Below, one piece after another: positions 32,729 to 49,799 of a stretch of DNA of 64,000 nt. The notes under the pieces are model-generated. The model saw only the letters and a list, made by a program, of their open reading frames with translations. It was not told the origin of the DNA and ran no database searches. The position numbers and the translations under genes were made by a program. Source of the stretch: Shinella curvata (GTDB taxonomy: Bacteria > Pseudomonadota > Alphaproteobacteria > Rhizobiales > Rhizobiaceae). Where the stretch lies: NCBI RefSeq assembly GCF_022899935.1, contig NZ_JALJCJ010000004.1, forward strand, positions 310,001-374,000, read 5' to 3'. Each line of letters starts with the position of its first letter. The stretch's first letter is position 1.

Positions 32729-33823
32729 ATGCGCAAGACAGCTCTCGTCTCGGCCCTCGCTCTGCTCGCTGCCATTGGCGGCGCGCAGGCGCAGGAGGAA
32801 AAGGTCGTCAATGTCTACAACTGGTCGGATTACATTGCGCCGGATACCGCGGAAAAGTTCGAGAGGGAAACCGGCATCCGCGTCGTCTATGACGTCTATG
32901 ACGGCAACGAGGTGCTGGAAACCAAGATGCTAACCGGCGGCTCGGGCTACGACGTCGTCTACCCCTCCGCCTATCCGTTCCTGAAGAACCAAGTGAAGGC
33001 CGGCGCCTTCCAGCCGCTCGACAAGGCGAAGCTCGGCAATATCGGTAAGCTCGATCCGCAGGCGCTGTCGCTGATTTCGGGCGCCGATCCCGACAACATC
33101 CACGCCGTGCCCTACATGTCCGTCACCGATGGCATCGGCTACAATATCGCGGCGGTGAAAGAGCGCATGCCGGACGCGCCGGTCGATAGCTTCGCCATGG
33201 TCTTCGACCCCGCGATCGTCGAGAAATTCGCCGATTGCGGTGTGGCCATGCTCGATGCGCCGGCCGAAATCATCCCGATGGCGATGAACTATCTCGGCAT
33301 CAATCCGCATTCGACGAACCCTGATGATATCGCCAAGGCGGAAGAGCTGCTCCTGAAGGTGCGCCCGCACATCCGCTACTTCCATTCCTCGCGTTATATC
33401 AACGACCTCGCCAATGGCGACATCTGTGTCGTGCTCGGCTGGTCAGGCGATATCCTGCAGGCCAAGGCGCGGGCAGCCGAAAGCGAGAAGAAGCTGGAGA
33501 TCGCCTATGCCATTCCGAAGGAGGGCACGCTGATCAACTTCGACACGATGGCCGTGCCGAAGGATGCGCCGCATCCGGAAAACGCGCTCGCCTGGATCGA
33601 TTTCAACATGCGGCCTGAGATCGCGGCGGCCAATTCCAGTTATGTCTCCTATGCCAATCCGATCCCGGAATCGCTACCGCTGATGGATCAGGCTGTTGCG
33701 AAGGATCCCGGCGTCTTCCCACCGGATGACGTCAAGGCAAAGCTCTTCGTGGTGGAAACGAGCGACGCGAAGCTGCTGCGGCTGCAAAACCGCCTGTGGA
33801 CGCGGGTCGTTTCAGGGCAGTGA
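32729..33823 (+). CDS. Polyamine ABC transporter, periplasmic binding protein (PotF/SpuD type)
   Basis: About 364 residues. Signal peptide MRKTALVSALALLAAIGGAQA, then the PotF-like mature start VVNVYNWSDYIAPDTAEKFERETGI with the conserved aromatic/Asp contacts for amines, GYDVVYPSA, VPYMSVTDGIGYN and VLGWSGDILQA. TGAGGAGAAG precedes ATG 32729. Together with agmatine deiminase it suggests uptake of agmatine or putrescine, but no permease or ATPase gene is adjacent, so it must borrow a membrane module from elsewhere. Its 3' end overlaps the convergent LuxR gene by 12 bases. Confidence 0.88.
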   Translation: MRKTALVSALALLAAIGGAQAQEEKVVNVYNWSDYIAPDTAEKFERETGIRVVYDVYDGNEVLETKMLTGGSGYDVVYPSAYPFLKNQVKAGAFQPLDKAKLGNIGKLDPQALSLISGADPDNIHAVPYMSVTDGIGYNIAAVKERMPDAPVDSFAMVFDPAIVEKFADCGVAMLDAPAEIIPMAMNYLGINPHSTNPDDIAKAEELLLKVRPHIRYFHSSRYINDLANGDICVVLGWSGDILQAKARAAESEKKLEIAYAIPKEGTLINFDTMAVPKDAPHPENALAWIDFNMRPEIAAANSSYVSYANPIPESLPLMDQAVAKDPGVFPPDDVKAKLFVVETSDAKLLRLQNRLWTRVVSGQ

Positions 33824-34573
33824 AAGCGGCGCGCGGCCGCCGTCGCGTGCGGCGGCCATCAGCTCGACCTGCGAGTGGATGCCGAGCTTGCGATAGACCG
33901 TCTTGATGTGGTTGCGCACCGTGCCGGGTGAGATGGAGAGGTCGCGCGAAATGGTTTTCGCGCAGCCACCATCGATGAGGAGGAGGGCGATCTGACGTTC
34001 CCTCGTGCTTAATTCGCCAAGCGAGAGTGGACTTCCCCCCGCCGGGCGCCATTGCCGCCACAGGCGCTCCAACACCAGGCGGGTGGCCTCGGCGGTGGCT
34101 TCAGCCATCGCCACATCCTCGGCGCCGAAGGGGCGGGCACCACGACGGCGCAGATAGGTGACGAAGCCCGCAGCATTGCGGTCGAAATTGAAGACGCCGG
34201 TGATCTCATCGAAACTGCCCGACGGTTCGTAGAAATCCCGGTAATAGGCGCTGGTGTGGAAGTCGCCCTTGTCGAGCGCGGAGAGCGGCAGCAGGAAATC
34301 CTGCTTTGAGCCGACGAACCGGCGGAAAAACGGATCCTGCTGGTATTTGCGCGTGTCGTAATTGTGGTTCCAGTGGTCCGGATCGCGCTCGTAAATGGTG
34401 ATCGAGGCGCTGTCGCGCAGATAGAGGCCGATATAGACCTGGTCGGAGGCGATGAGATCCCGCGCGCCAGCCGTGAAATGCGCCGAGATTTCTTCGGGCA
34501 AGGTGGCGCTGACGGCGGAAGCGATGCCGCTGCTCCAGCGCTGGAGCTGTTCGAAGGTAAGGTTCGGGCGCAT
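33812..34573 (-). CDS. LuxR-type transcriptional regulator
   Basis: 253 residues. C-terminal LuxR/GerE HTH (LSTRERQIALLLIDGGCAKTISRDL, SPGTVRNHIKTVYRKLGIHSQVELMA). The N-terminal ~170-residue domain has no receiver Asp; patches such as YDTRKYQQDPFFRRFV and GFVTYLRRRGARPFGAEDVAM recall the general layout of ligand-binding LuxR N-domains, but I cannot assign it as an acyl-homoserine-lactone domain. It follows nadE on the same strand after 40 bases and may be the last gene of that operon. No luxI-like synthase is present. Confidence 0.82.
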   Translation of the reverse strand: MRPNLTFEQLQRWSSGIASAVSATLPEEISAHFTAGARDLIASDQVYIGLYLRDSASITIYERDPDHWNHNYDTRKYQQDPFFRRFVGSKQDFLLPLSALDKGDFHTSAYYRDFYEPSGSFDEITGVFNFDRNAAGFVTYLRRRGARPFGAEDVAMAEATAEATRLVLERLWRQWRPAGGSPLSLGELSTRERQIALLLIDGGCAKTISRDLSISPGTVRNHIKTVYRKLGIHSQVELMAAARDGGRAPLSLP

Positions 34574-34613
34574 GGCGACAGGATAGACGGGGCGGCCGGG
34601 AATTCAAGCGGCC

Positions 34614-35597
34614 CTAGCCGATGGGCTCATCCATGACGAGCGGTGCGCAATGCAGGTAGCGGGCGACCTTGCGTTTGGCGGTTATGTCCGCCCAGACCAG
34701 CTCGACCTGGCTTGAACTGAGGCCCGTCGCCGCGGCAATCGTCTCGGCCGGCAGCCCGTGGTTCAGCCCGTAGAGGCAGATATCCATCTTGTCGTAGGGC
34801 AGGGCGAAGTAGAACTCCTCCTGCGTCTGCGGCAGGGAATAGGTGTCGGTCGTCGGCGGTCGTGAGAGGATTTCGGCTGGCACGCCGAGATGGGCCGCGA
34901 GCTGATAGACCTGCGACTTGTAGAGATGGGCGATCGGCTTGATATCGGCTGCGCCGTCGCCGTTCTTCACGAAGAAGCCCTGATCGTATTCCAGCCGGTT
35001 AGGTGTTCCCAGCACCGCGAAATTCAACCGGTCGGCATGGTAATATTCGAGCTGCTTGCGGCTGCGCTGCTTCATGTTCGTCGCCGCGACGATGCCGAGA
35101 TAGGCGCTGGCCGGCAGGCGTACCTTGCGCATCTCGCCGTCGGGCGTGCGCACGACGAGCGAGGAGATGTTGTAGCCGCCTGTCGTCATCGTGCTGTCGA
35201 AGACGATCTTCGACGCCCAGCCGTCGCCGTATTCGGGCACGGCCTCGCGGATGGCCGAGTCGCGGCGCGCGTAGCAGCCCATGGCGGCGAGTGCCGGGCC
35301 AATATCCTCAAGAGTGCTGTCGATGCCGAAGGTTTCGGCGACGGCACGGCCAAGCCGCAGGCTTTCCGGATCGGAATCGTTTTCCGGCATATAGAGGGCA
35401 AAGACGTTCTTCGCGCTGAGCGCCTTGGCGGCGAGCGCGGCGCACAGGCTGGAATCGATGCCGCCGGAGAGGCCGAGCACCAGTCCGCGCTTGCGCAGAT
35501 CGAGCCGCAGCTTCTCGCGCAGCCATTGCGAGATGCGCTCCACCTCGGCGGCGGGATCGAGCACGAGCGGGGCGAAGGCGGGGATATGGGACATCAT
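34614..35597 (-). CDS. NAD(+) synthetase-like amide ligase (NadE family, ammonia type)
   Basis: 327 residues, somewhat longer than ammonia-type NadE (~275). PP-loop ATPase motif VLGLSGGIDSSLCAALAAKAL, then NMKQRSRKQLEYYHADRLNFAVLGTPNRLEYDQGFFVKNGDGAADIKPIAHLYKSQV condensed in the NadE pattern (GTxNxxE-type and GD-D segments recognisable). No glutaminase domain, so ammonia must be free or supplied by a partner. ATG-ATG start overlaps the ligase stop. Being the last enzyme of an ACP-dependent operon, it may be a paralogue that amidates another carboxylate rather than the housekeeping NAD synthetase (inference). Confidence 0.8.
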   Translation of the reverse strand: MMSHIPAFAPLVLDPAAEVERISQWLREKLRLDLRKRGLVLGLSGGIDSSLCAALAAKALSAKNVFALYMPENDSDPESLRLGRAVAETFGIDSTLEDIGPALAAMGCYARRDSAIREAVPEYGDGWASKIVFDSTMTTGGYNISSLVVRTPDGEMRKVRLPASAYLGIVAATNMKQRSRKQLEYYHADRLNFAVLGTPNRLEYDQGFFVKNGDGAADIKPIAHLYKSQVYQLAAHLGVPAEILSRPPTTDTYSLPQTQEEFYFALPYDKMDICLYGLNHGLPAETIAAATGLSSSQVELVWADITAKRKVARYLHCAPLVMDEPIG

Positions 35598-37114
35598 TTC
35601 GATCCTGTCGGGTTGGCGGGCAGGGCGGCGAGACTACGGCTGGCCTTGCCGCTGTCGGTTCGGGGCAGGCTGTCACGGAATTCGACGACCTTTGGCACCA
35701 TATGGTCTTCGAGATGGCGAGCGCAAAAGCGCTGGATCTCGCGTTCCGTGAGATCGGCATTAGAGGCGACGACGACGGCTTTGACAGCCTCGCCAAGCAC
35801 ATCGTGCGGCACGCCGACGACCAGCGCCTCGGCAATACCGGGCATGCGGCACAGCACCTCTTCCACCGCCTGCGGTGCGACCTTCTCGCCGCGCGATTTG
35901 ATGATGTCGTCCATGCGGGCGACAAAGGTGAGGTAACCGTCGGCATCGGCCGTGAAGAGATCGCCGGTATGCAGGCGAAGCGTTCCGGTGTGGGGCGCCG
36001 GCCGCAGCGCTCGGCTGGTAGCGTCCGCTTTGCGCCAATAGCCGCGCATGACATGAGGCCCGCCGATGACGAGTTCGCCGACAATGCCGGGCGAAACCGC
36101 CTCACCCGCCTCGTCCACCACCGCGGCGGTGGTGCCCGGTATGGCGATGCCGACCGACCCTCGCTTCGCGTCGATCGTTTCCGGTGGAAGCCAGGTGGCG
36201 CGGGTGCATTCGGTCTGGCCGTACATGCAATAGATCCGCACATGGGGCAGGAAGCTGCGCAGCCAGTCGAGATGGGCGAGCGGCAGTGGCGCTGCGGCGC
36301 TGGTAATGTAGCGCAGGCTCGAAAAGAACGACGCATCGAGGTCGCGCGCCTGCATCATCATCGCGGCCATGGCCGGGACGAGCGGAAACCCCGTTACCCG
36401 CTCCGTGCGGATCGTCTCGAAGACGGCCTGCGGAAAGGCGAAGGACTTTTCGATGACGAGCGTCGCGCCTGACAGTATCGCGGTCACGAGCTGGTTGAGC
36501 CCGTAGCCGAAGGACAGCGGCAAGACAACCAGCAGGACGTCGTCGGCGGTATTTTCGAGATAGCGGGCTATCGACCGGGCCGCGGCGTCGAGTGTGGCGT
36601 GGCTATGCATCACGCCCTTGGGCTCCCCCGTCGAGCCGGAGGTGTAGATAAGTGCGGCGAGGTCGGTGTCGGGACGGTTTTCGGCCGGGATCAGAGGCAT
36701 TGCTGAAAGCGCGGCGTCGAAGCTGCCGGCCTCGCCTGCAACGAGCCGGGGGCGGGCGGCGAGAGAGGGGATTTCTTCGACAAGGTGTTGCAGGCGGCTT
36801 TCGAGGATGAGGGCGACGGGCTCGCAATCGCGTGCGATGGCGGCCAGCCGTTCGGCCTTCGTCGCGGGATTGACCGGGCAGATCGCAGCGCCCGCCATCC
36901 ATGTCGCCAGCACGGCGACGGCGGTGCGCCAGCCGTTGTCGAGAAAAATGAGCACGCGTTCGCCGCGACCGGCGCCGTGGTCGCGGAGCGTCGTCGCAAG
37001 ACGTCTGGACAGGTCGAGCAGCTGGTCGTAGCTCAGGCGCGTCTCGCCGGAGACGATCGCCGTCCTGGCGCCGTCGCGTTCCACGCTGGCCTGGAGATAG
37101 TGCTCGATCCGCAT
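35594..37114 (-). CDS. Acyl/aminoacyl-AMP ligase (ANL superfamily)
   Basis: 506 residues. Class I adenylate-forming enzyme with all core motifs: A3 LIYTSGSTGEPKGVMHSH, A5 YCMYGQTECT, A7 LRLHTGDLF, A8 hinge ARMDDIIKSRGEKV, A10 Lys in RTDSGKASR. Activates a carboxylic acid with ATP and most likely loads it on the acyl carrier protein encoded 11 bases upstream. No fused thiolation or condensation domain. Substrate not predictable by eye. Overlaps nadE by 4 bases. Confidence 0.85.
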   Translation of the reverse strand: MRIEHYLQASVERDGARTAIVSGETRLSYDQLLDLSRRLATTLRDHGAGRGERVLIFLDNGWRTAVAVLATWMAGAAICPVNPATKAERLAAIARDCEPVALILESRLQHLVEEIPSLAARPRLVAGEAGSFDAALSAMPLIPAENRPDTDLAALIYTSGSTGEPKGVMHSHATLDAAARSIARYLENTADDVLLVVLPLSFGYGLNQLVTAILSGATLVIEKSFAFPQAVFETIRTERVTGFPLVPAMAAMMMQARDLDASFFSSLRYITSAAAPLPLAHLDWLRSFLPHVRIYCMYGQTECTRATWLPPETIDAKRGSVGIAIPGTTAAVVDEAGEAVSPGIVGELVIGGPHVMRGYWRKADATSRALRPAPHTGTLRLHTGDLFTADADGYLTFVARMDDIIKSRGEKVAPQAVEEVLCRMPGIAEALVVGVPHDVLGEAVKAVVVASNADLTEREIQRFCARHLEDHMVPKVVEFRDSLPRTDSGKASRSLAALPANPTGSK

Positions 37115-37125
37115 CGCCGATGCCG

Positions 37126-37380
37126 TCAGGCAGTCTGTTTGCGGGCGATGAAGCCAGCAATCCGGTCGATCGTATCCAGATTGGCCGGCACGATATCCGC
37201 GTCAGCAATGGAGATGGCGAAGCGTTCCTCCAGGAAGCCGACCAGTTCGAGGATGCCGGTGGAATCGATGAGGTCGTTGTCGATCAGCGAGAGGTCGTTT
37301 GCAAGCGGCTGGCTGTCGTCGCCGAAGAGGAAGTTCTCCACGATGAAGGCGCGGATGGCGGTTCTGCTTTCGTCGGACAT
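37126..37380 (-). CDS. Acyl carrier protein
   Basis: 84 residues, acidic, four-helix carrier protein. The 4'-phosphopantetheine attachment Ser is Ser40 in NDLIDSTGILELVGFLEE; the motif is DST rather than the DSL of fatty-acid AcpP, so this is a specialised carrier. It is sandwiched between AMP-ligase and AsnB-type genes, implying that the ligase loads it and the product is built while tethered. The S. meliloti orphan carrier protein SMb20651 may be an orthologue (from memory, unverified). Confidence 0.88.
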   Translation of the reverse strand: MSDESRTAIRAFIVENFLFGDDSQPLANDLSLIDNDLIDSTGILELVGFLEERFAISIADADIVPANLDTIDRIAGFIARKQTA

Positions 37381-37398
37381 GTCTGGGATCCCGATCCT

Positions 37399-39330
37399 TT
37401 ATGCGCGAGGTGTCGATGGCGCGGCAGCGCCGAGAAGCTGTGTCGAAAGAATGCCGATGAAGGCGGCGTTGTCGCGAAAACCGCTCGCCTGGCCCTTGAG
37501 GACCTTGTCCTTCAGCTTGCCGACCGCCGGGCCATTGAAGAGGCCGCTTTCGGCAAGCCGGGCCGGCGAAAGCACATCGTCGAGATAGGCCGGCGTGCCG
37601 GGCGCGGCGAAACTTTCGCTGTCGGGCGCGCGGTACGGCTGCTTCGGGCGGTTGATGATCGCTTCGGGCACGAGGCCGCGCGCGGCTTCCTTGAGAATGT
37701 GTTTTTCACGCAGGCCCTGCAGCTTCGCCTCGGGCGGAAGCCTTGCGGCGAAGGCGACGACGCGATGGTCGAGGAAGGGAAAGCGCCCCTCCACGCCATT
37801 TGCCATCATTACCCGGTCCCCCTGGCTGGAAAGGATATAGCCGGGCAACAGGAAAGCCGTTTCGAGATATTGCGCCTGATGCAGCGGGTGCCACCGGGCG
37901 AAATCGCGCGGCAGCTGGGCGGCGAGGTCGGCGGCGGCGTCATAGTCGCCGAGCGTGTCCTTCAGGTCGGCGGAGAAGAACAGTTTGGCGGCGGCCGTCG
38001 AGCGGAAGCGCGGGCGGTGGGAATAGAGCGGATCGTCGAGCGCCTCGGCGCCGAAGGCGAAGAAGCGCGCGAGATATTCCGGCGTCTGCTGGTGCAGGCC
38101 GGGCAGGTACGGATAAAGCCGCTGGAAGAGGCGGGGGCGGCGGGTGGAGGCGGGCTGGCCGCCGCAGAAGCGCCGGACGCGCGCCTCGCGGAAAAGATCG
38201 TAGCCGGCAAAGATCTCGTCCGCGCCCTCGCCGGTGAGGACGACCTTCATGCCGCGCTCGCGCACGCGGGCCGCGAGCATATGGAGCGGCACGGGTGCCG
38301 TGCGCAGGATCGGGCACTCGATATGCCGCATCGCCGCGGGCAGGTCGGCCGCAATCGCCGCCGTCGTGCATTCCACGCTGTCGGCCGCGACATCGAGCGT
38401 CGCGGCCATCTGCCGCTGCCAGTCGCTTTCATCATGTTCCCCGCTGCGAAAGGTCAGGGAGAAGGTCCGCAGGCCATGGGTGACCGTTCGCGTGGCAAGC
38501 GCCGAGATCAGCGATGAATCGAGTCCGCCGGAGAGATAGGCGCCGACCGGCACGTCGGCGCGCAGGCGGATACGGGTGGCGTCGGAGAGAAGCGCCCGCA
38601 GTTCTTCGACCTGCTCGCCTTTTCGGCCGGCCGGCGGCATGTCGGCGCGATCGGGGAAGGAGAGCTGCCACCACGGCCGGATCGTCCGCGCGCCGTCTTT
38701 CACGAGCATCAGGTGGCCGGGCGGAAGTTCGTGGATGCCCCGGTAGGCGGTGCGGGGCGGGATGGGGCACCAGAGCGTGAAGACCTGGTCGAGCGCGAGC
38801 GGATCGATCTGCGCCGTCATGCCGGGAAGCGCGAGCAGCGCCTTGATCTCCGAGGCGAAGAACAGTGCGCCCTCGTGTTCGGCATAGAAGAGGGGGCGGA
38901 CACCCATGCGATCGCGTGCCAGAAGCAGCGTGCGGTTGCGCGCATCGTGCAGGGCAAAGGCGAAGTCGCCGTTGAAATCCTGCAGGCAGTCGATGCCTCT
39001 CGCCTCGTAGGCCTTGAGCAGCACTTCGGTATCGGAGGTCGTGCGGAAGCGGTGTCCGCGCGCCGCAAGGTCTGCACGCAGTTCCACATAGTTGAAGATC
39101 TCGCCGTTGAAGGAAACGGCGAGTGACGTGTCCTCCGTTGCCATCGGCTGGGCGCCGTCGGCAAGGCCGACGATGGAAAGGCGGGTGTGGGCCAGGCCGG
39201 TATCGCCGCTGATAAGCATGCCCTCGGCATCCGGCCCGCGATGGCGCAGGGCTGCGACCATGCGGCCGAGCAGGTCCGCGGCCCGTTCCGGTGAAAAATT
39301 CCCTCCGTGATATCCAGCGATCCCGCACAT
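37399..39330 (-). CDS. Asparagine synthetase B-like glutamine amidotransferase
   Basis: About 643 residues. The start is fixed by the class II amidotransferase nucleophile: MCGIAGYHGG, where Cys2 must follow the processed Met; the longer open frame to 39408 would bury it. Glutaminase domain: LRHRGPDAEG, LAHTRLSIVGLADGAQPM, SFNGEIFNYVELR. Synthetase domain: PP-loop GAYLSGGLDSSLISALA and VVLTGEGADEIFAGYDLFREAR. Makes amides from carboxylates by glutamine-derived ammonia; in the company of an ACP and AMP-ligase it is more likely a biosynthetic amidotransferase than a housekeeping asparagine synthetase. Confidence 0.87.
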   Translation of the reverse strand: MCGIAGYHGGNFSPERAADLLGRMVAALRHRGPDAEGMLISGDTGLAHTRLSIVGLADGAQPMATEDTSLAVSFNGEIFNYVELRADLAARGHRFRTTSDTEVLLKAYEARGIDCLQDFNGDFAFALHDARNRTLLLARDRMGVRPLFYAEHEGALFFASEIKALLALPGMTAQIDPLALDQVFTLWCPIPPRTAYRGIHELPPGHLMLVKDGARTIRPWWQLSFPDRADMPPAGRKGEQVEELRALLSDATRIRLRADVPVGAYLSGGLDSSLISALATRTVTHGLRTFSLTFRSGEHDESDWQRQMAATLDVAADSVECTTAAIAADLPAAMRHIECPILRTAPVPLHMLAARVRERGMKVVLTGEGADEIFAGYDLFREARVRRFCGGQPASTRRPRLFQRLYPYLPGLHQQTPEYLARFFAFGAEALDDPLYSHRPRFRSTAAAKLFFSADLKDTLGDYDAAADLAAQLPRDFARWHPLHQAQYLETAFLLPGYILSSQGDRVMMANGVEGRFPFLDHRVVAFAARLPPEAKLQGLREKHILKEAARGLVPEAIINRPKQPYRAPDSESFAAPGTPAYLDDVLSPARLAESGLFNGPAVGKLKDKVLKGQASGFRDNAAFIGILSTQLLGAAAPSTPRA

Positions 39331-39337
39331 GGCCGGC

Positions 39338-40447
39338 CTACCCGAAACGATCGCCGATGAGGCGCGTCCAGCCCTCGCCGGCAAGGCCGTTGAGGAAGGG
39401 CTGGCCATGCGTCAGCGCTGCGAGAATGGCGGGGTCGCGGGCGTGCACGACGGTCGAGGACGTGTGCAGGAAGGCGCATTTCTTGCCGATCATCGCCTGC
39501 AACAGCTCAGGCTGCGTGCGGCCCCTGACCGCGACGAGGCCGCGGTCATAGGCATTGCGAACAAGGCAGTCGATGACGATCGCTTCGTGCCCCGGCGCCG
39601 CCATGATCTGCACGACGCGGCCGATGCCGCCGGGATTGCCGTAATAGAGATAGAGGCCGACCGGCTTGCCGGAGCGGGTGCGCACGATGTGCTGGATGCG
39701 CTCGCCATGCAGTGCCTTGCGTTCGGCGTGTTTCAGCATCCCCTCGAGCGTCGGCCGGTCCCAGGCAGGGCGCAGGGGAAACCGTGCGACGAGATCAACG
39801 CAGAGGGCGGCGAACTCGGCGTTGTCGGCAGGTTTCGCCTCGAGGGCGTCGGCCTTGCCGGCAAACGGCGTATAGTGCGACCAGCTCTGCTTGCCGCCGC
39901 GCCGGCGCAGGACGGCGTCGCCAAGTTTGGCGACGGGCGACAGCAGGCGCGCAGCCGAAACTTTCGCCGACGCTGCTTCCAGCGCGAAGGCGGCGGGTCT
40001 GAGGATGCGCAGCCATTCCAGGCTGTAAGGCGCCAGCACGCCTGCCCGCATCGTCCGCCACATGTCGGTGGAGACATCGTTCGACGTTTCGCTGAAGGAA
40101 AGGTCCTGCGGGCCCGACAGCACGTCGCGCAAGAGGCGCGCGCCGGCAAAGGGGTCGCTGTCGCGGTCGTCGCAGGCGAAGGTGCCGCAATTGGCGGCCA
40201 GCAGGCGGCGTCCGTCGAAATGCATCTCGACAGGCAGCACGCCGAGGAAGCCCGATACGGTGTCGTCTGCACGCACATGCACGCGCGAGAAAAGCCCGGC
40301 TTCGCGGTTGGCGCCGTCAAGGAAGAGGGTGTGGATATAGGCCTTCAGGTCGTCGTTCGCCGGCTGGCCGCTCTTGCGCAGCAATCGCTGGAAGAGGTCG
40401 GCGACCGCATCCACATCCCTTGCCTCAAATGAACGTACGCTCGACAT
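39338..40447 (-). CDS. GNAT-fold acyltransferase-like protein
   Basis: 369 residues. N-terminal region VRSFEARDVDAVADLFQRLLRK and GFLGVLPVEMHFDGRRLLAANCGTFACDD have the pattern of GNAT N-acyltransferases (cf. double-GNAT proteins of cell-surface clusters); a second GNAT-like half follows (GKPVGLYLYYGNPGG...). First gene of the five- or six-gene operon; 7 bases before asnB. Probable role: transfer of an acyl or aminoacyl group from the carrier protein. Function is inferred from fold and context only; no obvious ribosome site decides between ATG 40447 and later starts. Confidence 0.65.
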   Translation of the reverse strand: MSSVRSFEARDVDAVADLFQRLLRKSGQPANDDLKAYIHTLFLDGANREAGLFSRVHVRADDTVSGFLGVLPVEMHFDGRRLLAANCGTFACDDRDSDPFAGARLLRDVLSGPQDLSFSETSNDVSTDMWRTMRAGVLAPYSLEWLRILRPAAFALEAASAKVSAARLLSPVAKLGDAVLRRRGGKQSWSHYTPFAGKADALEAKPADNAEFAALCVDLVARFPLRPAWDRPTLEGMLKHAERKALHGERIQHIVRTRSGKPVGLYLYYGNPGGIGRVVQIMAAPGHEAIVIDCLVRNAYDRGLVAVRGRTQPELLQAMIGKKCAFLHTSSTVVHARDPAILAALTHGQPFLNGLAGEGWTRLIGDRFG

Positions 40448-40543
40448 CGCGACCCACTCAGAACCTGCCCCATTCCGGCTCCCGGCGAAGAATTGCCGTC
40501 AGTTTCCCTTACGTGAGGAGCATGAAGAAAGGGTCAAGAATGG

Positions 40544-40569
40544 AAAAGCGGCGCCGCTTGGGGCGCCGC
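40544..40569 (-). terminator. Terminator of the glutaredoxin-MauE gene
   Basis: Perfect 8-bp stem GCGGCGCC (40548-40555) / GGCGCCGC (40562-40569) with a 6-base loop, followed on the - strand by TTTT (complement of 40544-40547). It lies just after the fusion gene and ahead of the biosynthetic operon, separating the two. Confidence 0.75.
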
Positions 40570-40578
40570 CGATCTGTT

Positions 40579-41358
40579 TTACATGGCGTGGGTGCCGATA
40601 TAGCCCAGCGAGGCCGCCGCCATCCAGAGCGCCATGGCGATCATCATCAGGTTCTCCGTCAGCGAGATGAAGCCGAGCGGGACGTTGCTTGCGCCGCCGA
40701 CACAGGCGCATTTCAGCTCGCGTCTGTCGAGATAGACAGCCTTGAACACCGAGGCGGCGCCGATCGTACCGATGAAGAGGGCGACGGGGACGGACAGCCA
40801 GTTCAGCGCGCCCGCCACCATCAGCAAGCCGGCCAAGCCTTCCGCATAGGGGTAGATGTAGCTGTAGGGCACCCAGCGCTTGGCGAGCAGGTCGTAGTTG
40901 AGGAACATGGTGGCGAAGCTTTCCACGTTCTGCAGCTTGAGCAGCGCCAGCACCACCATCGAGAAGGCGATGAACCACTCGGCGGCGCGCAGCGTGAAGG
41001 GCGAGCCGCTGACGGCATAGCTTGCCGCCATCGCAGTCAGCGCCGTCAGGGCGAAGAGCACGATGACCGGCCGGTAGGTGGTGGCCTTCGGATCGGCGAC
41101 GGGTTTGCCGAGATAGCGGCGCAGGTCGTCATAGCCCCCGACCCTGACACCGCCGATGAAGACCTGCGGCGTGGTGGCGACGCCATGTTCTGCCTTGAAC
41201 GCGTCGGTCGCCTCACGGGTCGTCAGGTGGCGGTCCTCCACCACATAGCCCGAGCGCTTGAGCAGATCCTTCGCCTTGAGGCCATAGGGGCAGGTGTGGC
41301 TCTCCATCACCATGCGGTAGAGAACGGCCTTCTTGGCATCCTGGGTTTTGTCCAACAT
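40579..41358 (-). CDS. Glutaredoxin-MauE/DoxX fusion membrane protein
   Basis: About 259 residues. Residues ~10-95 are a glutaredoxin domain with active site TCPYG and the cis-Pro segment TTPQVFIGG; then four membrane helices of the MauE/DoxX type, with a second Cys pair (KCACVGG) facing the membrane edge near the C-terminus. It looks like a membrane electron-relay for thiol/disulfide chemistry. AGGAGATGTGAG precedes ATG 41358, fixing the start; the much longer open frame to 42015 runs antisense through merR. Driven by a MerR-type promoter in the 51-base gap to the divergent regulator. Confidence 0.82.
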   Translation of the reverse strand: MLDKTQDAKKAVLYRMVMESHTCPYGLKAKDLLKRSGYVVEDRHLTTREATDAFKAEHGVATTPQVFIGGVRVGGYDDLRRYLGKPVADPKATTYRPVIVLFALTALTAMAASYAVSGSPFTLRAAEWFIAFSMVVLALLKLQNVESFATMFLNYDLLAKRWVPYSYIYPYAEGLAGLLMVAGALNWLSVPVALFIGTIGAASVFKAVYLDRRELKCACVGGASNVPLGFISLTENLMMIAMALWMAAASLGYIGTHAM

Positions 41359-41393
41359 CTCACATCTCCTGTATTGTGAAATCGTTGGCAGGA

Positions 41394-41424
41394 CTATAGG
41401 TTCCGTATCATGGTACGGAGTCAA
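41394..41424 (-). promoter_or_regulatory. MerR-type promoter/operator with 19-base spacer
   Basis: On the - strand: -35 TTGACT (complement of 41419-41424), a 19-base spacer (41400-41418) containing the dyad TCCGTA-N6-TACGGA (41402-41419), and -10 CTATAG (41394-41399). The over-long 19-base spacer with a dyad between the hexamers is the hallmark of MerR-activated promoters, and the sequence resembles the classic mercury-operon operator. The dyad also covers the ATG of the divergent regulator gene. Confidence 0.82.
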
Positions 41425-41814
41425 CAGCCAAAAGACCTGACGATCGGAAAATTTGCAGCGGCGGCCGATGTCGGCGTCGAGACGGTGCGTTTCTACCAGC
41501 GTCGAGGCCTGCTTCCGACGCCGAAGCGCGTCGGCGGCATCCGCCACTACGGCGAAAGCGACGTCAGCCGGCTGCGCTTCATCCGCCATGCGCAGGCGGC
41601 CGGTTTCACGCTGGAGGAGATCCGCCAGCTTCTGGCTCTCGATTCCGGCGAGGACCGCGCGGCGGCGCGCGAGATGGCGTCCAGACGCCTTGCCGAGCTC
41701 GATGCACGCATGGAGGCGCTGCAGCATGCGCGGGTCTCGCTGCAGAAGCTGGTGTCCGAATGTGCCATCGGCAAGACCGGGCCATGCCCGATCCTGAAAT
41801 CCTTTGGTGCCTGA
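41410..41814 (+). CDS. MerR-family regulator, mercury-type but lacking one metal Cys
   Basis: 134 residues. HTH and coupling helices are very like MerR of mercury operons (LTIGKFAAAADVGVETVRFYQRRGLLP, IRHYGESDVSRLRFIRHAQAAGF, LEEIRQLL). The C-terminal metal loop retains two cysteines (Cys118 and Cys126, in ECAIGKTGPCPIL) but the third Hg ligand, the Cys of the upstream helix, is replaced by Arg around position 83. So the ligand is probably not Hg(II) in trigonal geometry; a thiol-reactive stress or other soft metal is possible. It activates the divergent glutaredoxin-MauE gene. No merT/P/A genes are near. Confidence 0.85.
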   Translation: MVRSQQPKDLTIGKFAAAADVGVETVRFYQRRGLLPTPKRVGGIRHYGESDVSRLRFIRHAQAAGFTLEEIRQLLALDSGEDRAAAREMASRRLAELDARMEALQHARVSLQKLVSECAIGKTGPCPILKSFGA

Positions 41815-41833
41815 GGCCTGCCGGCCGAGGTCC

Positions 41834-41860
41834 TTGACAAAGGTCGAACGAGCGTATTTC
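41834..41860 (+). promoter_or_regulatory. Promoter of the amide-utilisation operon
   Basis: TTGACA (41834-41839) with TATTTC (41855-41860) 15 bases on (ATTTCA at 16 and TTTCAA at 17 are alternatives). Transcription starting near 41868 would begin right at the first leader hairpin. Confidence 0.45.
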
Positions 41861-41870
41861 AATCCTCTGC

Positions 41871-41971
41871 AATAAGCGGGATCGGTTCTCCCGTTATTCT
41901 CACATGACTTCGTTTGTCGAAGGGCAATAGCGCCCACAGCGGCCCGGTTTCCGGGGCTTCCCGCTGTGGGC
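41871..41971 (+). promoter_or_regulatory. Leader with two small hairpins and a terminator (ANTAR antitermination candidate)
   Basis: Hairpin 1: AATAAGCGGGA (41871-41881) / TCCCGTTATT (41889-41898), one bulged G. Hairpin 2: CTTCG (41908-41912) / CGAAG (41918-41922), 5-base loop. Terminator: GCCCACAGCGG (41932-41942) / CCGCTGTGGGC (41961-41971), perfect 11 bp, then TTTTCGTTTT. It precedes an AmiC-AmiR pair whose AmiR has an RNA-binding ANTAR domain. The two-hairpin plus terminator order is that of ANTAR targets, though the loops do not fit the canonical AxxGxx hexaloop exactly. Confidence 0.6.
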
Positions 41972-41989
41972 TTTTCGTTTTGGTGGCTG

Positions 41990-43126
41990 ATGCAGGAAAG
42001 CGTGAAGATCGGCATCCTCTATTCGACCTCCGGACCCTATGGGGCGATGGGGCGGGATGCGCATGCCGGCGCGGAATTCGCCTTTCACGATTATCGCGCC
42101 CGCGGCGGGTCCGAGATCGAGCCGGTCTTCTTCGATCCGCGTGCCGATCTCTCGGCCTATCTGGAGGGCGCGCGCAGCTTGATCCGAGACCATGGCTGCC
42201 GACACATTGTCGGCACCATCACGTCGTCGGCGCGGAAAGAAGTCATTCCGCTCGTCGAGAAACATGATGGCCTGCTCTGGTACATGTGTCCCTATGAGGG
42301 TTTCGAGGCGAACGAGAACGTCATCTATATCGGCGGCTGCCCCAACCAGCACCTGATCCCGCTGTTCGACTATCTGCTGCCCCGCCACGGCGCGCGGCCC
42401 TATCTCGTCGGTGCGAACTACGTCTGGGGCTGGGAAATGAACCGGCTGGCGCGTGAACTGATCCACAATGCCGGCGGCACGGTGCTCGGCGAGCGTTATC
42501 TGCCGCTTGAGGAAACCGCCGTCGAACGCATCGTCGCCGATATCGCCGAGAAGCGGCCGAGTTTCGTGCTGAACAATCTCGTGGGGCCGTCGAGCTACGC
42601 CTTCCTTGCTGCCATGCGCGAACTGGGTGAGCGCGACCCGGCCTTCCTGCCGGAAAACTGCCCGGTCGCCAGCTGCGACCTGCAGGAATGCGAACTCGGC
42701 GACATCAGGGACGGTGCCGCCCTCGGCCAGCTCTGCGCCGCCTCCTATTTCGATACGCTCGACACGCCCGACAACAAGGCCTTCAAGGCGCGGCTGACTG
42801 CCTGGAGTGGCGGCGAGCGTGTCGTCTCCAGCCTTTTCGCCAGTGCCTACACGGCCGTCAGCCTGTGCATCGCCGCCATCGAGGCCGCCGGTTCCGACGC
42901 GCCAGAGCGCGTGCGCGCAGAAGTTCTCGCCCGCGACTGGCCGTCGCTTTTCGGCGCTATGCGGGTGGATACGGCGACCAATCATGCCGCGCTGCCCTTC
43001 CTGCTCGGCCGCATCAACGACCGGCGCGGTTTCGATGTCATCGCCTCCGCCCCGGCACTCGCCGCCGATCCCTATCTGACGGGAGCGCCCACCAAGCCGG
43101 CGCCGCGCCTGAGGGTTGTGTCATGA
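41990..43126 (+). CDS. AmiC-like amide sensor / amide-urea binding protein
   Basis: About 378 residues, type I periplasmic-binding fold without signal peptide, so cytoplasmic, as for AmiC. Conserved: VKIGILYSTSGPYGAMGRDAHAGAEF, DLSAYLEGARSLI, GTITSSARKEVIPLVE, WYMCPYEGFE (aromatic residues of the amide pocket) and YLVGANYVWGWEMNRL. AmiC binds short amides and releases AmiR to act. ATG 41990 lies downstream of the leader terminator; a GTG at 41966 would start inside it. Overlaps amiR by 4 bases. Confidence 0.85.
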   Translation: MQESVKIGILYSTSGPYGAMGRDAHAGAEFAFHDYRARGGSEIEPVFFDPRADLSAYLEGARSLIRDHGCRHIVGTITSSARKEVIPLVEKHDGLLWYMCPYEGFEANENVIYIGGCPNQHLIPLFDYLLPRHGARPYLVGANYVWGWEMNRLARELIHNAGGTVLGERYLPLEETAVERIVADIAEKRPSFVLNNLVGPSSYAFLAAMRELGERDPAFLPENCPVASCDLQECELGDIRDGAALGQLCAASYFDTLDTPDNKAFKARLTAWSGGERVVSSLFASAYTAVSLCIAAIEAAGSDAPERVRAEVLARDWPSLFGAMRVDTATNHAALPFLLGRINDRRGFDVIASAPALAADPYLTGAPTKPAPRLRVVS

Positions 43127-43707
43127 CGACGAGGACCCCGAATTTCACCGGCTGGCGTGCCGTCATCCTCAGCGAGGCGGATGGCAACACGGATCGCCTG
43201 TGCCGCCAGCTCGGCCTGCTTGGCATAGCCGTGTCTATCCAGTGGACACCGCTTGCGGCGGCCGACCTGCCGGATCTGGTGCTGATCGATGCCGATCGCG
43301 GCTGGGACGAGCTTCTGCTCTTTTCCGATGCTGCGCCGGCCTGCCCGGTGGTGGCGCTGCTCGGGTCGGAAGCGCCGGGCCGCATCTCCTTTGCGCTGCG
43401 GCACGGTGCCGGCGCGATCATCTCGAAGCCGGTCGCAGCCTCCGCCGTCTATCCGGCGCTGGTGCTTGCCGTCTCCATCCATGCCGAGCGGGTTGAAGCC
43501 CGCCGCCGCATCGACCATCTCGAAGAGCGGTTGAAGCTCAGGCCCATCGTCTTCGCCGCCATCGTCCGTCTCAAGGCCGAGCGGCACATTGATGACGAGA
43601 AGGCCTATGCCATCCTGCGCGACTGCGCGATGCGCCGCCGCATGCCCATTGAACAGCTTGCCGCCTTCTTCCTCGGCGGTTCCGAAACCTTGCGCGAGGT
43701 CGGTTGA
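43123..43707 (+). CDS. ANTAR-domain antiterminator (AmiR-like)
   Basis: 194 residues. N-terminal pseudo-receiver domain (ILSEADGNTDRLCRQLGLLG..., VVALLGSEAPGRISFALRHGAGAIISKPV) without a clear phosphorylation triad, a coiled linker (VEARRRIDHLEERL), and a C-terminal ANTAR RNA-binding three-helix domain (RLKAERHIDDEKAYAILRDCAMRRRMPIEQLAAFFL). AmiR proteins prevent termination in the amide-operon leader when AmiC binds amide. The leader terminator at 41932-41971 is the obvious target. Confidence 0.87.
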   Translation: MTTRTPNFTGWRAVILSEADGNTDRLCRQLGLLGIAVSIQWTPLAAADLPDLVLIDADRGWDELLLFSDAAPACPVVALLGSEAPGRISFALRHGAGAIISKPVAASAVYPALVLAVSIHAERVEARRRIDHLEERLKLRPIVFAAIVRLKAERHIDDEKAYAILRDCAMRRRMPIEQLAAFFLGGSETLREVG

Positions 43708-44554
43708 TGCGGGTCCTGAAGGAATTGTGCCGCCAGCCCGCCGCGGTTTTCGGTCTCGTCATCGTTCTCGCCGTGGTCTCTGCGGCCATCGCCGCACCGT
43801 GGCTTGCACCCTATGAGCCCGACAACCAGATGTTCGATGGCCTGACGCTGGAGGGTGCGCCGATGCCGCCCGGCGATCAGTTCGCGCTCGGCACGGATAC
43901 GCTCGGCCGCGATCTGCTCTCGCGCCTGCTCTATGGCGCGCGCACCTCGCTGATCATCGGCCTTGTCGCCAACGGCATCGCGGTTGCCATCGGCCTCTTC
44001 GTCGGCGTGACTGCCGGTTACATGCGCGGCTGGGTCGGCGGCCTCCTGATGCGCTTCACCGACCTGATGATGGCCTTTCCGGCCTTGCTGCTCGCCATTG
44101 TGCTCGCCGCCATCCTGAAGCCCAGCCTCTGGATCGTTGCCATGGTGATCGCGCTGGTCAACTGGGTGCAGGTGGCGCGCATCGTCTATACGGAGACGCG
44201 CGGGCTGGTGGAGCGCGATTTCATCATGGCCGAACGGGCGCTCGGTGCGGGCAATGCCCGCATCGTGCTGCTGCATGTCCTGCCGCATCTCGTGCCGACG
44301 GCCATCGTCTGGGGCACGCTCGGCATCGCGACGACGGTGCTGCTCGAGGCCACGCTTTCCTTCCTCGGCATAGGCGTGCAGCCGCCGCAGCCCTCCTGGG
44401 GCAACATCATTTTCGAGAGCCAGAGCTATTTCCAGGCCGCTCCCTGGCTCGTCTTTTTCCCCGGCGCGGTGATCCTTTTGACGGCGCTCGCCTTCAATCT
44501 GGTGGGGGACGCGTTGCGCGACATCCTCGACCCGACGCAGCGGGGGCGCGGCTG

Positions 44555-44555
<1 letters not shown>
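43707..44555 (+). CDS. ABC transporter permease (DppC type)
   Basis: About 282 residues, BPD_transp_1 family of peptide/opine/nickel transporters. Starts with the OppC-like N-terminal helix, then LGTDTLGRDLLSRLLYGARTSL, several helices and the EAA loop ERALGAGNARIVLLHVLPHLVP. TGATG overlap with amiR (ATG 43707) shows tight coupling. Partner of the DppB-type permease that follows. Confidence 0.9.
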
Positions 44556-45475
<920 letters not shown>

Positions 45476-45496
45476 AACCAAAAGGGGAACTTTAAA

Positions 45497-47113
45497 ATGT
45501 TCAATCGCTGGATTTTGACCACTACGACGGCGGCCGTGCTCGCCTTGTCTCCGCTGCTGGCCCATGCCGAAACGCCCGCCCAGGGTGGCGAGATCGTCGT
45601 GACCTACAAGGACGACATCACCACGCTCGACCCGCATATCGGTTACGACTGGGTCAACTGGTCGATGATCAAGAGCCTGTTCTCGCGCCTGATGGATTAC
45701 GAGCCGGGCACCGCCAATCTCGTACCGTCGCTCGCCGAAAGTTTCGAGGTCGCGCCCGATGGCCTCACCTATACGTTCAAGCTGCGCAAGGGCGTGAAGT
45801 TCACCAACGGCCGCGAGATTGTCGCCGGCGACGTGAAATATTCCATCGAACGTGCCGTCAACCCGAAGACGCAGGGCCCCGGTGCCGGTTTCTTCGGTGC
45901 CATCAAGGGCTTTGACGACCTGACGGGCGGCAAGTCGGAACTGCTCTCCGGCATCGAGACGCCCGACGACCAGACTGTCGTCTTCCATCTTTCGCGCCCC
46001 GATGCGACCTTCCTGCATGTCATGGCGATCAACTTCGCCTCGGTCGTGCCGAAGGAGGCTGTCGAAGCCGCAGCGGGTGATTTCGGCAAGAAGCCGGTCG
46101 GCTCCGGCTCGCTTGTCCTCAAGGACTGGACGATCGGCCAGAAGCTCGTCTTCGAACGCAACCCCGATTACTTCGTCAAGGATGTGCCGCATGTCGACAA
46201 GGTGACGGTTGAGGTCGGCCAGGAGCCGCTGGTTGCGCTGCTGCGCCTGCAGAAGGGCGAGGTCGATATTGCCGGTGACGGCATTCCGCCGGCAAAGTTC
46301 CTGGAGATCAAGAACTCGCCCGAGGGTGCGGCGATGATCGTCGACGGCGAGCAGCTGCACACCGGCTACATCACGCTCAACACCAAGGTAAAACCCTTTG
46401 ACGACGTGAAGGTGCGCCAGGCCGTCAACATGGCGATCAACAAGGAGCGTATCACGCGCATCCTGAACGGCCGCGCCACCGCCGCAAACCAGATCCTGCC
46501 GCCGCTGATGCCGGGTTACGACAAGGCCTTCACCGGCTATGCCTATGATGTGGAGAAGGCCAAGGCCTTGCTCGCTGAGGCCGGCCATCCGGATGGTTTC
46601 GAGACGGTGCTCTATTCCACCAACACCGATCCGCAGCCGCGCATCGCCCAGGCGATCCAGCAGGATCTCGCTGCCATCGGCATCAAGGCCGAGGTCCGCG
46701 CGCTGGCGCAGGGCAACGTGATCGCCGCCGGCGGCACGGAAGGCGAAGCGCCGATGATCTGGTCCGGCGGCATGGGCTGGATCGCCGACTTCCCGGATCC
46801 GTCCAACTTCTACGGCCCGATCCTCGGTTGCTCGGGCGCGGTCTCGGGTGGCTGGAACTGGCCGTGGTATTGCAACGAGACGATCGACAAGCGCGCCGGC
46901 GAAGCCGATGCCATGTCCGATCCGGCCAAGGCCGCGGAGCGCCAGGCGGCTTGGGGCAAGATCTTCACGGATGTCATGGCGGATGCGCCCTGGGTCCCGG
47001 TCATCAACGAGCGCCGTGTCGTGGCGAAGTCGCTGCGCATGGGCGGGCCTGACAACATCTACATCGATCCGACGCGCGTCATCAATTACGACGCGATCTT
47101 CGTGAAGCCCTAA
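45497..47113 (+). CDS. ABC transporter substrate-binding protein (DppA/OppA family)
   Basis: 538 residues. Signal peptide in the first ~25 residues (cleavage after AHA before ETPAQGG), then SBP_bac_5 features: ITTLDPHIGYDWVNWSMIKSLFSRLM, NLVPSLAESFEVAPDGLTYTFKLRKGVKF, and C-terminal PDPSNFYGPILGCSGAV. The family carries peptides, opines, nickel and amide-like solutes; the formamidase and AmiC/AmiR neighbours suggest an amide-bearing ligand. A stem-loop follows the gene. Confidence 0.9.
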   Translation: MFNRWILTTTTAAVLALSPLLAHAETPAQGGEIVVTYKDDITTLDPHIGYDWVNWSMIKSLFSRLMDYEPGTANLVPSLAESFEVAPDGLTYTFKLRKGVKFTNGREIVAGDVKYSIERAVNPKTQGPGAGFFGAIKGFDDLTGGKSELLSGIETPDDQTVVFHLSRPDATFLHVMAINFASVVPKEAVEAAAGDFGKKPVGSGSLVLKDWTIGQKLVFERNPDYFVKDVPHVDKVTVEVGQEPLVALLRLQKGEVDIAGDGIPPAKFLEIKNSPEGAAMIVDGEQLHTGYITLNTKVKPFDDVKVRQAVNMAINKERITRILNGRATAANQILPPLMPGYDKAFTGYAYDVEKAKALLAEAGHPDGFETVLYSTNTDPQPRIAQAIQQDLAAIGIKAEVRALAQGNVIAAGGTEGEAPMIWSGGMGWIADFPDPSNFYGPILGCSGAVSGGWNWPWYCNETIDKRAGEADAMSDPAKAAERQAAWGKIFTDVMADAPWVPVINERRVVAKSLRMGGPDNIYIDPTRVINYDAIFVKP

Positions 47114-47128
47114 GCTTTTGATGTCGCT

Positions 47129-47148
47129 CTCCCCGCCTCGGTGGGGAG
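47129..47148 (+). other. Intercistronic stem-loop after the binding-protein gene
   Basis: CTCCCC (47129-47134) / GGGGAG (47143-47148) with an 8-base loop that can pair further through CCG/CGG. No T run. Same position, relative to a binding-protein gene, as the hairpin at 10678-10703. Confidence 0.5.
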
Positions 47149-47181
47149 GGCTTTCCAAGAACACTATGACGGGAGGCTTTC

Positions 47182-48122
47182 ATGTGCGTCGCCTGCACCT
47201 ATACCATCCACCGCGCGCAGCATAATTTCGGCTGGAACCGCGATTTTCCGCCGGCACTGACGGCCAAGCCCGGCGAGACCATCCTCTTCGAATGCCTCGA
47301 TTCCTCCGGCGGCCAGCTCGGCAGGGATGCGACGCTGGAAACGCTGGCGGCGCTCGATTTCGGCAAGGTGAACCCGGTTTCCGGCCCTGTTTATGTCGAG
47401 GGTGCGGAGCCCGGCGACGCCCTGAAGGTGACGATCCGCAAGTTCCATCCCTCCGGCCACGGCTGGACGGCCAATATTCCGGGCTTCGGCCTGCTCGCCG
47501 ACCAGTTCAAGGACCCGGCGCTGCATATCTGGTCCTATGACACGGCCTCCATGGCGCCCTCGGCCTTCGGCCCCGGCGGCCGGGTGCCGCTGAAGCCGTT
47601 TACCGGCACAATCGGTGTGGCTCCGGCCGAAGCCGGCCTGCATTCCGTCGTCCCGCCGCGCCGCGTCGGCGGCAATATGGACATCCGCGACCTGACGGCC
47701 GGCGTCACACTCTATCTGCCGGTCGAGGTGGAAGGCGCGCTGTTTTCCGTCGGCGATACCCATGCCGCGCAGGGTGACGGTGAGGTCTGCGGCACGGCGA
47801 TCGAAAGCCAGATGAATGTCGAGCTGACCCTCGACCTCGTGAAGGGCGCCAATCTGCAGACGCCGCGCTTCACCACGACCGAGCCGGTGACGCGCCATCT
47901 TGACGGCGCCGGCTACGAGGTGACGACCGGCATCGGCCCGGACCTGATGACGGGTGCGCGCGAGGCGGTGATGCGCATGATCGACCTGCTCGTCGCCGAA
48001 CACGGCTACAGCCCCGTCGATGCCTATATGCTCTGCTCGGTCTGCGGCGATCTCCGGATCAGCGAGATCGTCGACATGCCGAACTGGGTCGTCTCCTTCT
48101 ACTTCCCGAGGATCGTCTTCGC

Positions 48123-48126
<4 letters not shown>
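47182..48126 (+). CDS. Acetamidase/formamidase family protein
   Basis: 314 residues, FmdA_AmdA family. Core elements: NFGWNRDFPPALTAKPGETILFEC, YVEGAEPGDALKVTI, GGNMDIRDLTAGVTLYLPVEVEGALFSVGDTHAAQGDGEVCGTAIE in condensed form (metal-ligand region GDTHAAQGDGE), and MLCSVCGDLRISEIVD at the end. These Zn-dependent enzymes hydrolyse formamide or short aliphatic amides to acid plus ammonia. Being in the AmiC/AmiR-controlled operon makes amide hydrolysis the likely purpose; substrate length is undetermined. Confidence 0.88.

Positions 48127-49795
<1,669 letters not shown>

Positions 49796-49799
<4 letters not shown>

Follow-up and report, generated by a model that had tools for sequence, protein, structure and literature searches.

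What do a relative of NAD synthetase and a relative of asparagine synthetase do in a row of genes built around a carrier protein? The question is raised by a locus of Shinella curvata in the window analysed here, a stretch of 64,000 nucleotides covering positions 310,001 to 374,000 of contig NZ_JALJCJ010000004.1 (assembly GCF_022899935.1; the source genome is 6.07 Mb in size and 99.99% complete). Five minus-strand genes, packed in 5.8 kb (34614-40447), encode a GNAT-like transferase, an AsnB-family amidotransferase, an acyl carrier protein (ACP), an AMP-forming ligase and a NadE-like ligase. The intergenic gaps within this cassette are 7, 18 and 11 bp, and the ligase and NadE-like genes overlap by 4 bp. 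An earlier interpretation made without database searches (the sequence-only reading) had described five tightly packed genes here, and their place, strand and named families were all borne out by the open reading frames (ORFs) and by profile and structure matches. Of its gene limits, all five ORFs stood and the AsnB start was moved from 39408 to 39330, most likely the true start because it opens with MCGIAGY and would yield an N-terminal Cys; with that start the gene does not overlap the GNAT gene. We lean, if only slightly, towards the view that the cassette is a self-contained carrier-protein pathway for the making and handing on of an amidated acyl unit.

The first support for this view comes from the conservation of the cassette. 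After the removal of three duplicates (L031, L033 and L042, of L055, L056 and L126) from 107 loci, 104 remained for comparison, and all four core genes (AsnB, ACP, ligase and NadE-like) are present in 97 of them with a median span of 4797 bp. The order in these 97 is AsnB-ACP-ligase-NadE in 88, NadE-AsnB-ligase-ACP in eight and AsnB-ligase-ACP-NadE in one. With NadE as the bait, the four core genes stand together in 97 of 104 loci, so their grouping is beyond chance, and the dedicated ACP operon of the sequence-only reading is supported as a conserved unit. The gene order, for which that reading had proposed a check across relatives, is kept far beyond close relatives, four of the 104 loci (L144, L145, L146 and L147) lying outside the taxonomic order. 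Seven loci are without one or more core genes; L053 and L110 are short or contig-edge loci, L110 being cut by the contig end.

The scan of genome contigs found at least 588 stretches, at least 575 of them relatives, of which the best 80 were kept. The NF002048 family, to which the NadE-like protein belongs, was found in 20 of 297 genomes of the order (13 of 123 genera) and in 15 of 398 genomes sampled from the phylum, the two samples sharing some genomes. Among 72,556 plasmid records 117 match, 76 of them from Sinorhizobium, and S. meliloti 2011 carries an unbroken copy of the cassette on pSymB. The nearest named loci among the matches listed are from Shinella, with NadE-like identities of 89% (L047), 87% (L048) and 82% (L049), and the NadE-like gene occurs in 17 of 21 genomes of the genus, the source genome included. 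The cassette is broadly distributed, which the sequence-only reading understated, and it is probably misnamed in annotation. Genes SMb20481-84, considered as its location in S. meliloti, were not supported. In S. meliloti strain ml46 (L131:13244-15188) the cassette AsnB is split in two frames, and it is stop-free in strains 2011 and LMB1.

The NadE-like protein matches PF02540 (173 bits) and scores 504.9 bits against NF002048 (PRK00876.1, an 'NAD(+) synthase' subfamily), over the cut-off of 313. Its match to TIGR00552 exceeds the cut-off (158 against 63.65 bits) but is broken in two stretches, and that to NF010587 is under the cut-off (167 against 255 bits). The structure model, with a predicted local distance difference test score (pLDDT) of 85, has NAD synthetases as top Foldseek matches, with template modelling (TM) scores to the target of up to 0.87. 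A NadE relative with another substrate is known, namely 3fiu of Francisella, titled nicotinamide mononucleotide (NMN) synthetase, which is among the structure matches. The cassette protein is like ammonia-dependent NadE and 3fiu in its fold, PP-loop and retained C-terminal NadE motifs, but differs from them in an extra segment of about 60 residues, in its linkage to an ACP and in the presence of two other NadE copies in the genome, neither of which has the segment. NadE2 of Azospirillum was rejected as a counterpart, being, in passages of PMC7196632, a glutamine-dependent NAD synthetase and a different protein.

The AsnB-family protein matches PF00733 (304 bits) and GATase_7, and it passes TIGR01536 (499 bits, cut-off 267). 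Its second-best model match is the XrtA amidotransferase TIGR03108, at 426 bits under the cut-off of 817, and TIGR03104, from the N-acetylglutaminylglutamine amide system, is likewise under its cut-off (376 against 570 bits). The top-scoring solved sequence is 7ylz, titled hydroxyamidotransferase.

No Pfam match at E 0.001 was found for the carrier protein, and the ten NCBIfam carrier models that it matches are all scored under cut-off, the best being NF052616 (61.5 bits, cut-off 130). Profile comparison of its alignment leads to peptidyl and acyl carrier proteins of solved structure, among them the peptidyl carrier proteins (PCPs) 2my5, PigG and PltL. Ser40 in DST, the predicted attachment site named in the sequence-only reading, is invariant in all 15 aligned ACPs. 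The ornithine-lipid (OlsHI) ACP, which gave the top NCBIfam match, was discarded as an identification, its score being far under the cut-off and the OlsH system being described as a GH3-like pathway.

For the AMP-forming ligase the best model is the XrtA ligase TIGR03098, again under the cut-off (404 against 592 bits). Arg305 is invariant in 98 of 98 ligases, while position 203 is occupied by Asp in 68, Gly in 14, Thr in eight, Asn in four, Ala in two and Ser in two. Lys304 accompanies Asp203 in 67 of the 68; the window ligase has Gly203 and Thr304. We take position 203 to correspond to the alpha-amine-binding residue of NRPS (non-ribosomal peptide synthetase) adenylation domains, and Arg305 to lie in the side-chain pocket. 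On the strength of this presumed homology, the Asp203 class might load an amino diacid and the Gly203 class another acid.

The GNAT-like protein has no Pfam or NCBIfam match at E 0.001. Its structure model (mean pLDDT 92.8) is matched by GNAT proteins and N-myristoyltransferases (NMT) with Foldseek E values of about 1e-12 and TM scores of about 0.5-0.57, the top matches being 2hv2, NMT and 2i00, and on this confident model rests the assignment of the first cassette protein to the GNAT superfamily by fold. Within 12 kb, a GNAT gene is present at 81 of the 104 loci and a thioesterase gene at ten; three of the 81 (L144, L146 and L147) were counted with their own proteins included as queries. The two never co-occur at a locus (0 of 104), which suggests that GNAT and thioesterase are alternative ways to unload the carrier. 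On the NadE tree, a single clade unites eight of the ten thioesterase loci, all with the NadE-first order, whereas L045 and L149 show the common order and branch in other places; at least two switches between GNAT and thioesterase therefore took place, by this quick tree, in which long branches were flagged. The thioesterase gene overlaps NadE in some loci and is fused with an AMP-binding domain in others. In L035:11959-14751 and L037:7376-9460, fusions of an AMP-binding domain and a thioesterase head the NadE-first cassette; they are NRPS-like and without a condensation match.

Two kinds of companion genes recur around the cassette. A PrmC/HemK-like methyltransferase (150 bits against TIGR00536, cut-off 115.5) is near in 39 of the 104 loci, and polysaccharide genes, counted where three or more of Wzx, Wzz, Wzy, deacetylase and glycosyltransferase occur, are near in 27, both counts resting on queries from one or two loci (L063 and L035). 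PrmC methylates a glutamine side-chain amide, so a primary amide in the product would fit a PrmC-like companion. The methyltransferase was found with 39 of 68 Asp203 ligases and with none of the 30 others. In Sinorhizobium medicae and S. meliloti, annotation places minCDE and then polysaccharide genes after the cassette. The aligned stretches of S. meliloti 2011 show no stops in the cassette genes or in those for GNAT, methyltransferase, Wzx, second GNAT, Wzz, Wzy and deacetylase. The linked deacetylase resembles HfsH (174 bits, under the cut-off of 400). Of the four loci from beyond the taxonomic order, L147 combines an EpsB_2 glycosyltransferase of the XrtA type, which passes its cut-off, with deacetylase and glycosyltransferase genes; L145 has a DUF3473-type deacetylase, glycosyltransferase genes and a PEP-CTERM model under cut-off, and L146 glycosyltransferase-like genes, while L144 has a weak deacetylase match and otherwise no clear polysaccharide gene. 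SMb21506 (Jofre and Becker), a candidate member of the linked polysaccharide cluster that appeared only in a cited title, was set aside. Passages of PMC7468200 describe an AsnB-like enzyme (WbpS) and a transferase (VimA) which act, with VimE, on one surface sugar, and in an excerpt of PMC4784049 genes for an asparagine synthase and a deacetylase belong to one polysaccharide cluster of Thauera.

From the protein families and their genomic context, four steps may be proposed. The AMP-forming ligase would activate an acid, probably one whose second group, polar or a carboxylate, would sit close to Arg305, and load it on Ser40 of the ACP, as its family and pocket suggest. The AsnB-type enzyme would convert a carboxylate to an amide with ammonia from glutamine. 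The NadE-like ligase, recruited from NAD synthesis, could adenylate a carboxylate and form a second amide bond, with either the unit already on its carrier or the still unloaded acid as substrate; this step is the least certain. Finally, the GNAT would remove the unit from the ACP and attach it to an amine. A thioesterase takes the place of the GNAT in other lineages and may release the unit, while methylation of the new amide could be the task of the PrmC-like enzyme. For cassettes beside a Wzx/Wzy cluster that includes a deacetylase, a freed amino sugar of a surface polysaccharide would probably be the acceptor, by analogy with VimE, a deacetylase, and with VimA and WbpS. The sequence-only reading had spoken of a complete small pathway, a claim which is not supported, substrate supply and acceptor not being accounted for. 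The wider proposal is more doubtful and is put forward tentatively: that a widespread but overlooked pathway exists in which the NadE fold left NAD metabolism and builds an amide on an ACP-bound (amino)acyl unit, with optional N-methylation by the PrmC-like enzyme and either transfer to amino sugars of surface polysaccharides by the GNAT or release by the thioesterase.

Several observations weigh against the carrier-protein pathway or its extension to polysaccharides. All loci were picked up by way of NadE, and the 80 with names are those that scored best, which biases the counts towards close relatives. Four loci (L122, L124, L125 and L126), from Neorhizobium, Xaviernesmea and a Rhizobiales isolate, keep the ACP, ligase and NadE-like genes and the GNAT with no AsnB nearby, and at 13 of the 104, among them a 3.7-kb contig, a GNAT and a thioesterase are both missing from the surrounding 12 kb. 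The GNAT-like proteins of L144, L146 and L147 have three query matches each, seemingly to each other, and that of L146 has a Pfam GNAT match; hhalign profile comparison with the window GNAT family was negative for all three. The tie between Asp203 and the methyltransferase fails a tree-aware test (five independent pairs, p 0.5). On the tree the methyltransferase linkage changes 12 times and the polysaccharide linkage 10 times, and both links are therefore recurrent but loose. Near the window cassette there is neither a PrmC-like methyltransferase nor a set of Wzx/Wzy-type genes. In the source genome the linked deacetylase found no match, in a search without a positive control, and no second GNAT copy was found at E 0.01; the linked methyltransferase found four matches of 26-36% identity, which look like general PrmC/PrmB-type relatives. 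For these reasons the window itself shows no link to polysaccharides. Finally, because most NadE motifs are kept in the NadE-like protein, true NAD or NMN synthesis by it is possible.

Among the alternatives, the one that holds up best is still unlikely: AsnB and the NadE-like protein would act on a nucleotide-linked uronic acid sugar, and the ligase, ACP and GNAT would separately attach an acyl group. The natural substrate of NadE is a carboxylate-bearing dinucleotide, from which a nucleoside diphosphate uronate would be a small step away. The AsnB scores 426 bits against eps_aminotran_1, the family of WbpS and WbqG, for which uronamide formation is proposed in passages of PMC7468200, and the polysaccharide linkage of 27 of the 104 loci agrees with such a role. 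However, that score is below the family cut-off of 817 bits, 77 of the 104 loci are under the polysaccharide threshold (with one query set), cassettes such as that of the window stand alone, and the loci with a thioesterase speak for a product that is set free.

A small amide that is secreted or sensed, be it a signal, a siderophore-like compound or an osmolyte, is an improbable product, although the surroundings of the window cassette might seem to invite it. A LuxR-type regulator with a GerE domain (33812-34573) lies 40 bp downstream of the NadE-like gene, but in the clustering none of the other 99 loci has a relative of it. Just upstream, at 41990-48126, are genes for AmiC, AmiR, Opp permeases, a substrate-binding protein (SBP) and FmdA; relatives of AmiC, AmiR, both permeases and the SBP stand in the same row by cassettes L049 and L097, with one of FmdA also in L097. 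However, of 11 genomes of the genus with both the cassette and an AmiC match, only two (the source genome and G660) have them within 20 kb, three having them about 80 kb apart and six on different contigs, and this amide-sensing operon was accordingly rejected as a functional partner. No transport or signal family has a fixed place by the cassette in 100 clustered loci; an ABC-ATPase cluster occurs in 34 of them at scattered offsets, and a TonB receptor and an MFS (major facilitator superfamily) gene flank the cassette in one lineage (L117). The Wzx/Wzy-type neighbours of 27 of the 104 loci point to another kind of product there, and the 'signal or metallophore-like' molecule of the sequence-only reading is not supported.

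Least probable of all is that housekeeping or back-up genes for NAD and asparagine synthesis stand by chance beside an acid ligase and an ACP. Such a role would explain the name of NF002048, the passing of TIGR01536 and the largely retained NadE motifs, and no other full AsnB was found in the genome, the other GATase matches reading as PurF and GlmS and the other PF00733 matches covering short parts of the profile. However, the genome has two further full nadE genes, one of the long glutamine-dependent type and one short, so that the lack of another nadE, to which the sequence-only reading had tied a housekeeping role, is not found. Its counterpart for asnB is literally true, there being no other full copy, but is offset by the finding of no asparaginyl-tRNA synthetase (AsnRS) above cut-off in the genome, from which Asn-tRNA is presumably made by the amidotransferase route, and of no NF002048 match in four of the 21 genus genomes. 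For the last two reasons a housekeeping role is unlikely; given also the two other nadE genes and the closely kept association with a ligase, an ACP and either a GNAT or a thioesterase, it was rejected as the main interpretation. A defence system was also dismissed, PADLOC giving no match.

Compared with known systems, the proposed carrier-protein pathway shares with the XrtA/PEP-CTERM exopolysaccharide module an AMP-forming ligase and an AsnB-type amidotransferase in a polysaccharide context (TIGR03098 and TIGR03108), and the XrtA-type glycosyltransferase of L147 is a further likeness. It differs in scoring under the curated cut-offs (592 and 817), in regularly having a NadE-like ligase and its own ACP, and in that no exosortase is among the window flanking genes scanned. 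The Wbp/Vim linking-sugar pathway of Porphyromonas resembles it in that a single surface sugar is the target of both an AsnB-like enzyme and an N-acyl(aminoacyl) transferase, whereas the passages of PMC7468200 name no carrier protein, ligase or NadE for Wbp/Vim, and the linked deacetylase is unmatched in the window genome (by the uncontrolled search mentioned above). For ActJ and MatC (actinonin and matlystatin), an excerpt of PMC5719088 proposes that an AsnB-like enzyme forms a carboxamide or hydroxamate on a thioester-bound diacid; the AsnB-like enzyme, the proposed amidation on a thioester-bound unit and the top solved match to 7ylz are alike, but no oxygenase and no elongation by polyketide synthase (PKS) or NRPS was found at the cassette, and a NadE-like ligase is added. 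In line with the statement that no polyketide or NRPS module is present, no condensation or ketosynthase module was found among the flanking genes scanned with Pfam. No paper describing the cassette, judged by titles, the openings of abstracts and selected passages, was found in the searchable open full-text literature of PMC, a scope to which subscription journals and preprints do not belong.

Annotation assigns the cassettes of relatives to the synthesis of NAD and asparagine, so that metabolic reconstructions could model them wrongly, and the presence of a conserved cassette on pSymB of S. meliloti 2011 brings the question into model rhizobia. If the proposal is true, hundreds of 'NAD(+) synthase' and 'asparagine synthase' proteins are misannotated, and the NadE fold has a new use within a new route to decorate surface glycans or to make small amides.

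Table 1. Features of the cassette and its upstream flank, in window coordinates.
Feature	Position	Strand	Basis or remark
NadE-like PP-loop amide ligase, 327 aa	34614..35597	-	NF002048 family
Extra segment of the NadE-like protein, about residues 105-165	35103..35285	-	two-stretch NadE matches and alignment to NadE copies of the same genome
PP-loop SGGIDS, residues 44-49 of the NadE-like protein	35451..35468	-	S44, G45, G46, D48 and S49 invariant in 40/40
AMP-forming ligase, 506 aa	35594..37114	-	PF00501, 311 bits; pocket Gly203, Thr304, Arg305
Type II carrier protein (ACP), 84 aa	37126..37380	-	ORF; NCBIfam matches all under cut-off; profile match to solved PCPs
Codon of ACP Ser40, predicted phosphopantetheine site	37261..37263	-	DST motif, invariant in alignment
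AsnB-family glutamine-dependent amidotransferase, 643 aa	37399..39330	-	N-terminal Cys and PP-loop in sequence
GNAT-like transferase, 369 aa, tandem GNAT fold	39338..40447	-	ORF and structure model
Hairpin, GC-rich with T-rich tail	40547..40570	-	consensus match; between the upstream glutaredoxin-MauE gene and the GNAT gene

The hairpin listed in Table 1 could separate two transcription units; it is weak evidence, as six terminator-like sites were observed in the stretch against 5.8 expected from shuffles. No sigma-70-like promoter was found in 33500-42200, and Rfam gave no match in 33000-48500.

Some further features of the loci may be recorded. The loci in which AsnB is not nearby (L126:2230-19403, L122, L124 and L125) also contain a second ligase, a dihydrodipicolinate synthase (DHDPS)-like enzyme and a 2-hydroxyacid dehydrogenase, and L126 has in addition an amidase-family gene with a clustered relative in L125. 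The archaeon Methanosarcina acetivorans is the sole one of 14 control genomes with NF002048 over cut-off. In the window, 41990-49799 is occupied by an operon for amide sensing, uptake and hydrolysis, comprising an AmiC-like protein, an AmiR-like ANTAR protein, Opp permeases, an SBP, an acetamidase/formamidase and an ABC ATPase. Between this operon and the cassette, a glutaredoxin fused to MauE is encoded at 40579-41727, and near it, on the opposite strand, a MerR regulator (41410-41814). In L048, too, a relative of the glutaredoxin-MauE protein, with 86% identity over 260 aa, is encoded upstream of the cassette.

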